Shown here piece after piece: positions 18,451-33,326 of a stretch of DNA of 33,334 nt; positions within the stretch are counted from its first letter, which is position 1, and the number at the start of each line of letters is the position of its first letter. Source of the stretch: Rhodoferax sp. OV413 (lineage in GTDB: Bacteria > Pseudomonadota > Gammaproteobacteria > Burkholderiales > Burkholderiaceae_C); assembly GCF_945881795.1 (NCBI RefSeq), contig NZ_CAMCVG010000016.1:1-33334 (forward strand), in the 5' to 3' direction. The translations under genes and the position numbers were made by a program. Below the pieces are notes generated by a model that worked only from the letters and a program-made list of their open reading frames with translations, made no database searches and was not told the origin of the DNA.

Positions 18451-19665
18451 ATGCTGTTACCTGATTGGGCTGTCCTGAATGCAGCCATCGACTGGCTGGC
18501 CCATGGCGCTTGGGACCTTGTCTGGTGGCAAAAGCTGTTGTTCGCTTTGGCCCTGACCCACGTCACCATGATCAGCGTGACCGTCTTCCTGCACCGTCAC
18601 CAGGCCCACCGCTCCCTCGACCTGCACCCGATTGCGTCGCATTTTTTCCGTTTCTGGTTGTGGCTGACCACCGGGCAGGTGACCAAGGAGTGGGCGTCCA
18701 TTCACCGCAAGCACCACGCCAAGTGCGAGCAGGCAGACGACCCGCACAGCCCGCACATCCACGGCATCAAGACCGTGCTCTTCCAGGGCGCTGAGCTCTA
18801 CCGTGCCGAGTCCAAGAACAAGGAAACCATGGCCCGTTTCGGCCACGGCACGCCTGACGACTGGATTGAGCGCAACCTGTACACCCGTTTTTCCTGGCAG
18901 GGTGTGGGCCTGATGATGGTGATCGACCTGTTCCTCTTCGGCGCATCCGGCTTGGCCGTGTGGGCTATGCAGATGGCGTGGACCCCCATCACCGCGGCCG
19001 GCATCATCAACGGCGCAGCCCACTACTGGGGTTACCGCAACTTTGAGGCGCCCGATGCGTCCACCAATATTTCGCCCTGGGGCATCCTGATTGCCGGCGA
19101 AGAGTTGCACAACAACCACCACACTTATCCCACGTCGGCCAAGCTGTCGGTCAAGCCCTACGAGTTTGATATCGGCTGGATGTACATCTCCATGATGCAG
19201 GCGGTTGGCCTGGCCAAAGTCAAAAAGACGCCGCCCAAGGCCGCTTACGGCGACGTGCGCCCTGTTGCCGACGAGAAGACCCTCGAAGCCCTGATCGCCA
19301 ATCGCTACGAAATCATGGCCACCTACGCCAAGGGCGTGCGCGAAGCCGCCCGCCATGAGCTGGCTGCCATGAAAGCGCGCAGCGCAGACGCCGCCGTGAT
19401 TCAGGCCGCCAAGCGTTGGATGCACCGCGATGTTGAGAAAGTGCCGGCCACCGCCGCCACCCAACTGGCACAGGCCCGTGCGGCCTCTCCAGTGCTGGAC
19501 AAAATGGTCACTATGCGCGAAGAGTTGCGCCAGCTGTGGCTCAACACCAGCGTCTCGCGAGAGCAGCTGACCAAAGACCTGCAAGCCTGGTGCCACCGCG
19601 CAGAAGAAAGCGGCATTGCTGCTCTGAGCGATTTCTCCATGAAGCTTCGCGCAGCACGCGTATAA
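18451..19665 (+). CDS. membrane fatty acid desaturase (delta-9 type)
   Basis: A 404-residue inner-membrane di-iron desaturase. The three histidine boxes are HRHQAH (48-53), HRKHH (85-89) and HNNHH (220-224), with membrane helices between. It should introduce a double bond into acyl-CoA or phospholipid acyl chains with electrons from a ferredoxin or cytochrome. Residues after about 300 form a soluble, helical, charged tail ending LQAWCHRAEESGIAALSDFS. I recall the same motif (LQ.WC..AE.SGI..L..F) at the end of ISL3-family transposases. An AGAGAGA stretch precedes the ATG. A terminator follows at 19686. Confidence 0.92.
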   Translation: MLLPDWAVLNAAIDWLAHGAWDLVWWQKLLFALALTHVTMISVTVFLHRHQAHRSLDLHPIASHFFRFWLWLTTGQVTKEWASIHRKHHAKCEQADDPHSPHIHGIKTVLFQGAELYRAESKNKETMARFGHGTPDDWIERNLYTRFSWQGVGLMMVIDLFLFGASGLAVWAMQMAWTPITAAGIINGAAHYWGYRNFEAPDASTNISPWGILIAGEELHNNHHTYPTSAKLSVKPYEFDIGWMYISMMQAVGLAKVKKTPPKAAYGDVRPVADEKTLEALIANRYEIMATYAKGVREAARHELAAMKARSADAAVIQAAKRWMHRDVEKVPATAATQLAQARAASPVLDKMVTMREELRQLWLNTSVSREQLTKDLQAWCHRAEESGIAALSDFSMKLRAARV

Positions 19666-19685: not shown

Positions 19686-19712
19686 AAAGCCCGCCTTGTG
19701 CGGGCTTTTTTG
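19686..19712 (+). terminator. intrinsic terminator of the desaturase gene
   Basis: AAAGCCCGC (19686-19694) and GCGGGCTTT (19700-19708) form a 9-bp stem with loop CTTGT, followed by more T residues. It is 20 bases after the desaturase stop. Confidence 0.9.
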
Positions 19713-19772
19713 TTACCGGGACTCTTGTTGCCGGTGCATTTTTGAATGTGAAAGTAGATATCTCGCGGAAGA

Positions 19773-19862
19773 AGAGGTAGTGAGGCTGGCGGTTTTGCGC
19801 AGGTAAAGGAGGAGCCCGAAGGGCGGGGGACACGGAGCAAAACCGCCGGCCTCGCTGCCTCT
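19773..19862 (+). ncRNA. possible structured RNA or repeat hairpin in a gene-free stretch
   Basis: The 273 bases between the desaturase and rpmG hold no gene. Within them, 19774-19798 and 19837-19861 are complementary over 25 positions, 26 with the flanking A-U pair. The only three departures from Watson-Crick pairing are U opposite G in plus-strand RNA, so the stem is unbroken there, while on the minus strand they would be A-C mismatches. The 38-base loop contains a smaller GCCC-GAA-GGGC hairpin and purine-rich sequence (AAAGGAGGAG). No promoter is certain. It could be a small RNA, a mobile palindromic repeat, or a protein-binding structure. Confidence 0.45.
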
Positions 19863-19891
19863 GGGTCGGCCGCAGGGGAATCGACGGGCAC

Positions 19892-19915
19892 AAAAAAGCC
19901 CGCACAAGGCGGGCT
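19892..19915 (-). terminator. intrinsic terminator of the rpmB-rpmG unit
   Basis: On the minus strand AGCCCGC-CTTGT-GCGGGCT is followed by six T residues. It is 22 bases after the rpmG stop. Stem, loop and T-tract are nearly identical to the plus-strand terminator at 19686. Confidence 0.9.
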
Positions 19916-19937
19916 CTTCGGAGGGGCCAAGCGTGAA

Positions 19938-20108
19938 TTACTTCAGCTTGATTTCCTTGTAGTCGACGTGCTTGCGAGCAACGGGATCAAATTTCTTGAT
20001 CAGCATTTTCTCGGGAGTCGTCTTCTTGTTTTTGTCGGTCGTGTAGAAGTGACCGGTGCCGGCTGTGGATTCCAGCTTGATTTTTTCGCGTCCGCCTTTG
20101 GTTGCCAT
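19938..20108 (-). CDS. rpmG: 50S ribosomal protein L33
   Basis: A 56-residue basic protein, [17 protein letters not shown] at the start and DYKEIKLK at the end, the standard L33 of proteobacteria without the zinc-binding cysteines found in some paralogues, which suggests no zinc dependence. The ATG at 20108 has AAGGAG nine bases upstream, overlapping the end of rpmB. It is 13 bases downstream of rpmB in the conserved rpmB-rpmG order, and a terminator follows. Confidence 0.97.
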
Positions 20109-33241: not shown

Positions 33242-33326
33242 TGGTGCCCAGGGCCGGACTCGAACCGGCACGCCTTGCGGCGGGGGATTTTGAGTCCCCT
33301 GAGTCTACCAATTTCACCACCTGGGC
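33242..33326 (-). tRNA. tRNA-Leu (anticodon CAA)
   Basis: An 85-base class II tRNA. The acceptor arms GCCCAGG/CCTGGGC pair fully (33326-33320 with 33252-33246), the anticodon stem GGGGA/TCCCC encloses CTCAAAA giving anticodon CAA for UUG codons, a long variable arm CGCC-GCAA-GGCG is present, the T-loop is TTCGAGT, and the 3' CCA is encoded. All expected leucine features are seen. Confidence 0.97.

Follow-up and report, generated by a model that had tools for sequence, protein, structure and literature searches.

A strand-biased folded repeat between a putative desaturase gene and rpmG in Rhodoferax, one copy of a dispersed, apparently mobile family in Burkholderiales

In the window, meaning the whole stretch of 33,334 bases from Rhodoferax sp. 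OV413 that was analysed, a long hairpin lies between two terminators that face each other from two convergent genes (Table 1). We take the upstream gene to encode a fatty-acid desaturase, based on the name given by the first-pass annotation and on histidine motifs. The other gene is presumably rpmG, encoding the 50S ribosomal protein L33, a name that likewise comes from the first-pass annotation.

Table 1. Features of the desaturase-rpmG region, in window coordinates
Feature	Position	Strand	Description
Putative fatty-acid desaturase gene	18451..19665	+	ORF upstream of the hairpin; matched in 55 of the 61 genus genomes
Desaturase-gene terminator	19686..19712	+	Host feature; kept in L188 and L189 without the hairpin
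Left (5') arm	19773..19798	+	Pairs with 19837-19862; three U-G wobbles, other pairs Watson-Crick
Conserved core between the arms	19799..19836	+	G-X-AGGTAAAGGAGGAG, inner hairpin, CGGGGGACACG-Y-A
Inner hairpin P2 (GCCC GAA GGGC)	19814..19824	+	Homologous P2, in a longer form, in 78 aligned copies
Right (3') arm	19837..19862	+	Pairs with 19773-19798
rpmG terminator	19889..19917	-	Host feature, outside the element
Presumed rpmG	19938..20108	-	ORF; anchor for the locus comparison

The hairpin had been described as a long stem whose three deviations are all U opposite G, enclosing a loop with an inner hairpin, and both points were borne out. The stem has 26 pairs with T19778-G19857, T19781-G19854, and T19787-G19848 as the sole deviations, and within the 38-nt loop 19814-19817 pairs with 19821-19824 around a GAA loop. 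Position 19800 (X) stands opposite 19835 (Y), a pair that covaries throughout the family described below, and it is flanked by the purine-purine oppositions G19799-A19836 and A19801-G19834, which are present in 78 and 77 of the 78 aligned copies, respectively. Searching the window for inverted repeats with 25-base arms, matched ends, 22 or more matching positions, and a spacer of 3-59 gave only this hairpin, in two registers. For both strands of a 241-base stretch that includes the terminators, the folding energy is 10-11 standard deviations lower than in dinucleotide shuffles. The hairpin itself does not have the form of an intrinsic terminator, a GC stem with a U run following at once: GGGTCGG comes next, and U runs are present only at the two outer host stems. 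A search of the whole window against Rfam gave nothing above the gathering threshold except a tRNA at 33245-33326, and all 16 matches around the hairpin were below threshold.

The two terminators are indeed near-identical and facing, as previously noted, with arms (19688-19718 and 19885-19915) that are 94% complementary; their motif occurs in the window at these two places and at one further match with three mismatches, versus 0.01 expected. They are not part of the hairpin element. The relatives L188 and L189 have both genes, each with such a terminator, while the hairpin is absent and little sequence lies between; the terminators are therefore host features. With rpmG as the anchor, which could be placed in 17 of the 30 fetched loci (window included), the site was compared by reading the sequences. 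Eleven of the 17 loci carry one or two elements, with the core in either orientation, and the core is inverted in four of the eight single-element loci. The rest comprise the two empty sites, three with another palindrome family, and one that was unread. The inverted cores sit inside corresponding arms of related species (L179, L181, L183, and L184 as compared to L176-L178 and L182 here, as well as L222 and L224 in mpl), and hairpins therefore flip their orientation over evolutionary time. The second palindromic family is of like design, with a CGATTTGTGG..CCACCATGAGG core between variable pairing arms; it is found at L193, L199, and L202 (desaturase-rpmG site) and at L048:2267, and has five copies in 1.35 Mb of loci.

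The hairpin is one copy of a dispersed, apparently mobile, folded repeat family in Burkholderiales, and not a single-locus small RNA. In its own genome, the loop sequence occurs at four further places, giving at least five copies, whose arms differ from copy to copy but pair within each copy, while a reversed-pattern control gave none; a covariance model found six places. The covariance-model search of related genomes proposed by the first-pass annotation was productive: with model R1, matches are present in 49 of the 61 genus genomes (own genome included), and in a family-level sample in 85 of 200 genomes and 65 of 141 genera, again with the own genome included. The copy numbers per genome given below are lower bounds, as at most 68 candidates were scored per genus genome and at most 20 per family genome. 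The exact core pattern is more restricted. Of 61 genomes searched, every one from the genus, 22 contain it, with the own genome among them, and the reversed-pattern control gave no match. In a sample of 150 genomes across the order it occurs in three, one being the own genome and the other two belonging to another family. Among named genomes, at least 120 stretches were found, and the 80 listed among them are mostly from Rhodoferax, Hydrogenophaga, Curvibacter, and betaproteobacterial MAGs, with three from Ideonella. The match length is 92 for the window copy, 96 for most copies, and up to ~127 in some genera, and the GC content of 78 aligned copies is 69.3%. Placement could be assigned for 143 of 144 copies (one locus was too short), with 50 intergenic, 48 inside an ORF, and 45 overlapping an ORF end, counts that are rough owing to heuristic gene calls based on long GC3-rich ORFs. 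With the L107 copy as query, the only plasmid match was 29 bases long and came from a Variovorax record, and phages gave no match at that sensitivity; among viral contigs, the exact pattern has one match, at L363:7369-7413 (IMGVR_UViG_3300024949_000020). The core pattern is also seen outside the family with a far longer inner hairpin (G048:C2:274400-274667 and G120:C20:44792), in G048 as an outward pair. The first-pass annotation had stated that palindromic repeats without expression would speak against its proposal, and the dispersed-repeat half of that outcome is what was found.

Out of 197 copies, 79 mutually dissimilar ones sharing one core length were selected, and 78 of them were aligned (L108 was omitted by hand) in 96 gap-free columns with a hand-written structure. 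Standard pairs fill 93.6% of the cells, and the outer helix has two-sided changes at 26 of 29 pairs; the covariation score is 0.517, as compared to 0.163 for shuffled and at most 0.117 for slid alignments. The core is nearly invariant, in part because it was used to find the copies, and it lies between arms that vary from copy to copy yet still pair. Even within this core, the X-Y pair covaries (C-G in 59 copies, U-G in 9, U-A in 6, G-C in 2, and C-A in 2), and a purine pair is swapped, with A39-G60 in 68 copies, G39-A60 in 6, and other combinations in 4. The inner stem differs in both length and sequence between subfamilies. Outside the stem, CTAG occupies one particular offset in 9 of 109 copies (left) and 10 of 109 (right), as compared to at most two copies at any other offset.

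The wobble pairs of the window copy are part of a family-wide strand bias. When G-T and A-C were given equal treatment during arm extension, the arms of 110 copies of the main class contained 180 G-T versus 36 A-C oppositions. Across all 144 copies, two of which have weak arms, the count is 241 G-T versus 50 A-C, so the other copies do not show A-C as often as G-U, an outcome that the first-pass annotation had set against its own idea. G-T exceeds A-C in 109 of these 144 copies, equals it in 21, and is exceeded by it in 14. The bias is present when only dissimilar copies are counted (108 versus 12, n=60; 88 versus 13, n=62), and also over all 25 arm columns of the 78 aligned copies with the frayed outer positions included (142 versus 46). 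It peaks near the core (65 versus 4) and is gone past position 23 (12 versus 11). RNA folding gave the better result for the core strand in 71 of the 78 copies, and the other strand was at least equal in 7.

One could regard these hairpins as dead repeats in ordinary palindrome evolution, in which hairpin-templated repair maintains the similarity of the arms with no selection on either strand. The occurrence of the core in either orientation within corresponding arms of relatives and the sometimes abrupt changes of the arms would fit such a process, but repair acting equally on both strands should not yield 241 G-T versus 50 A-C, and we consider this account highly unlikely, the more so as the core exceeds synonymous sites in conservation among recognisable mpl copies (see below). 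We lean toward selection as the cause of the strand bias, since conversion alone is not expected to favour G-T over A-C. The first-pass annotation had suggested that selection acts on a plus-strand RNA rather than on DNA. The family-wide bias upholds one folded strand, while RNA as such does not follow: G-T should be better tolerated than A-C in single-stranded DNA hairpins as well, so a single strand is implied and not RNA specifically. The core strand thus appears to be selected as a folded single strand, either RNA or single-stranded DNA. The copies in long ORFs bear on the same point. The bias is 28 versus 8 in 22 sense copies and 12 versus 1 in 8 antisense copies; because it tracks the core strand in gene-antisense copies, selection in those copies is not acting on the host mRNA.

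Copies inside genes are best documented in mpl, whose identity was supported by TIGR01081 (649 bits versus a cut-off of 389), with 3hn7 and 3eag as the best sequence matches in the PDB. An in-frame element lies between SARL and an EADEYD motif in 19 loci (L210-L225, L231, L058, and L064; L091 duplicates L210, and L145 duplicates L213). Of 13 other mpl loci fetched, five (L235-L239) show nothing but a bare loop and the remaining eight contain different linkers; a search of the core-less linkers for remains of the element gave no convincing trace of the core. The L226 linker has a short palindrome at the position of the element, which is no more stably folded than shuffled sequences (33 of 200 as low) and could be a decayed copy. 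Across the 19 loci, core identity is 0.95-0.98 in each divergence bin, while identity at synonymous third positions falls from 0.83 to 0.56 and that of the arms from ~0.75 to ~0.60. The arms of each mpl copy pair with each other at 17-22 of 22 positions, with 24 G-T versus 5 A-C. Among recognisable copies, therefore, the core in mpl is more conserved than synonymous sites, a measure that covers core-recognisable copies only and misses decayed ones. Selection on the in-frame peptide AQVKEEPAxRAGDTE was considered as well and is disfavoured by the inverted core in two mpl loci. The constraint looks to be at the level of the nucleic acid and not of the peptide, because the inverted cores of L222 and L224 encode a different peptide. 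As the core and the pairing are kept against synonymous drift, the element either has a role in place or is refreshed by conversion or re-insertion. L213 and L214 are 87% identical at synonymous positions and 55% in the arms, with an identical core; abrupt arm differences of this kind between close relatives hint at replacement and not slow compensation.

Other host genes were also found. Among nine proteins run, mpl, mutL, putA, hrpA, and the error-prone DNA polymerase III alpha subunit were above the family cut-off; below it, one host resembles hybrid histidine kinases and one S1-domain and similar proteins, and one further host had no match. In-frame copies in information-processing genes are present in hrpA (L002 and L108), mutL (L030), and the error-prone DNA polymerase alpha gene (L038). 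L041, L043, L045, L070, and L096 resemble the L038 polymerase gene in flank or peptide, and this similarity between sequences suggests that one polymerase gene may have been used repeatedly or anciently.

Another reading is that of a functional RNA, a protein-binding or processing site in transcripts that has spread and is kept for the benefit of the host, with mobility being secondary. The conserved internal loop, the X-Y covariation, the purine-purine swap, and the strand bias are all consistent with it, as are the mpl conservation beyond synonymous sites (with the same reservation about decayed copies) and the 31 long-ORF insertions, in 22 of which the core strand is the coding strand. If the family is BRE, discussed below, the 80-nt transcript bprJ1 from a BRE-bearing region of Bordetella pertussis points the same way, according to the available part of the account (PMC3110155). 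However, the core strand is opposite to the coding strand in the other 9 of the 31 insertions, and the eight countable ones keep the bias; moreover, 12 of the 61 genus genomes have no match, and none of the Rfam matches is above threshold. Taken together, we find host benefit through transcripts rather unlikely as the main explanation.

The arrangement of neighbouring elements gives a different clue. Of 29 element pairs less than 400 bases apart, 28 are (-,+), with the cores facing outward, and some of these represent the same site in relatives. Core-to-core distances cluster near 100 bases in a sample that includes units fetched as pairs. Flanks are visible for 247 copies, of which 167 stand alone, 77 belong to (-,+) pairs, and three to other pairs; only two of the 80 paired copies are in a same-direction pair. 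In G381, a single-contig genome of 6.6 Mb, the twin pair together with its spacer and flanks recurs as a ~280-300-bp unit at about nine sites, with eight long matches (query included; the others with 85-92% identity) and one partial match, in surroundings that are unrelated by eye. This repeated unit contains no gene. Its recurrence provides the strongest support for a replicating unit, while the high proportion of single copies (167 of 247) counts against the twin-unit view. In one of the G381 units L320-L328, namely L328, one core is split by a further GC-rich palindrome. Imperfect inverted ends are clear at one G381 unit (L302), with similar end sequences at others by eye; terminal inverted repeats exceeded shuffles (p ≤0.025, 200 shuffles) in five of 20 units, including the host-type terminator L317, and in only one of six G381 units. 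When the G381 end sequence was used to look for a partner element, 13 matches were obtained, seven at the units and six isolated with three mismatches, and no autonomous partner was among them.

Twin hairpins of this kind could be moved as single-stranded DNA by a RAYT (Y1 transposase, PF01797), as in REP/REPIN systems. The organisation in inverted pairs is REPIN-like, judging from the available part of PMC3116915, and the enzyme is usually present, as PF01797 genes occur in 54 of the 61 genus genomes. The hairpin is nevertheless ~92-96 nt or longer, as compared to 20-40 bp for REP sequences, and has no conserved one-sided GTAG/CGTC tag (the available text of PMC3733652). PF01797 also does not track the copies: no match was found in five of 49 copy-bearing genomes (G011, G030, G066, G075, and G084, with at least 12, 34, 16, 46, and 31 copies, respectively), while 10 of 12 copy-free genomes have one. 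The absences in those five genomes are weak evidence, because these are MAGs that are 66-91% complete. On balance, mobilisation by a RAYT seems unlikely. Spread by reverse transcription of a plus-strand RNA would produce the strand bias expected of an RNA intermediate, but PF00078 has no match in G001, G033, G071, and G073, which are 100% complete and carry at least 28, 28, 68, and 32 copies, respectively, nor in the own genome, and this route is scarcely credible.

The hairpin probably represents a resident copy of a mobile repeat of Burkholderiales that is not autonomous and is itself probably BRE; its twin unit would replicate and leave single copies behind. The replicating form would be the outward twin hairpin, presumably mobilised in trans by an enzyme recognising the core strand in its folded state, as RNA or single-stranded DNA; the candidates examined (PF01797, PF00078, and a partner with the G381 ends) yielded no mobilising enzyme. 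Single copies, including that in the window, would be left-overs that have since descended vertically, persisting where they do little harm, which may often be between convergent genes or as an in-frame protein linker. At mpl, the folded strand could have a role in place, or copies could be refreshed by conversion or re-insertion. A second possibility, which we hold only tentatively, is that the family is a structured RNA or single-stranded DNA module shared by dozens of genera of one family, whose conserved purine-rich internal loop is read by a putative protein, so that it would serve as a working RNA signal between and in genes with the fold selected whatever the peptide.

Under the favoured account of a mobile repeat with a twin replicating unit, a repeat family previously known, if at all, only as a 90-bp element awaiting characterisation acquires a definite fold with one strand apparently selected, a putative binding-site-like loop, and a likely replicating unit. 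This makes testable what moves palindromic repeats in bacteria without a known enzyme, and whether in-gene repeats become working RNA parts. The count of G-T versus A-C is also a cheap test that can be applied to other palindromic repeats.

The family shares features with several known systems. As in MITEs, the repeated unit in G381 is gene-free, ~280-300 bp long, and has imperfect inverted ends at L302; however, no partner transposase with such ends was found, the end repeats of most units are no better than shuffles, and no target duplication could be defined. Rickettsia palindromic elements are palindromic repeats found in frame in unrelated protein genes, as described in the available part of PMC10969869, and in-frame insertion is common to both. 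In contrast, it is the nucleotide core and not the peptide that is conserved here, as seen from the inverted core in two mpl loci, and the hosts, among the matches listed, are Comamonadaceae-type bacteria and MAGs. In REPINs, closely linked short palindromes form inverted pairs that were proposed as the replicating unit, with singles decaying (PMC3116915, as far as that source was available). The inverted doublets here, some of them orthologous, resemble REPINs and BIMEs. The present hairpin is several-fold longer and contains an extensive conserved internal loop; its copy number does not follow the presence of PF01797 genes, and some copies sit in frame within genes. By the description of REP sequences in the available part of PMC3733652 (a 20-40-bp palindrome with a one-sided unpaired GTAG/CGTC), the family also differs, having a 27-pair outer stem and no conserved end tetranucleotide. 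The CTAG found here is palindromic and occurs on both sides, unlike the one-sided REP tag.

The R. ferrireducens genome paper, in its available part (PMC2755013), mentions palindromic repeats only as CRISPR. One paper found, Hot et al. 2011, may describe the same repeat: the family is probably the Beta-proteobacterial Repeat Element (BRE), matched by description only and not by sequence. According to the available part of that account (PMC3110155), BRE is ~90 bp long (75-91 in Bordetella) with a GC content of 69.0%, and it occurs in Rhodoferax, Polaromonas, Acidovorax, Delftia, Bordetella, and others, where it is scattered and mostly intergenic, with some copies wholly within coding sequence and more than one copy at some sites. 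In B. pertussis, it is present in the region that gives rise to the 80- and 200-nt bprJ transcripts; no function was proposed in that part, and the authors call for further investigation. GC content (69.0% versus 69.3%), hosts, and placement agree with our family, whose copies are likewise scattered and partly within genes, and the length is close (75-91 versus 92-96 for most). The arrangement differs, with tandem arrays having few or no bases in between in Bordetella and outward pairs with cores ~100 bases apart here. Strand asymmetry, covarying arms, outward pairs, and in-frame conservation are not reported in the available part of the BRE account (PMC3110155). While the family itself has probably already been named, the present analysis adds how it folds, the strand bias across its copies, the twin unit with its outward-facing cores, and its conservation within genes.
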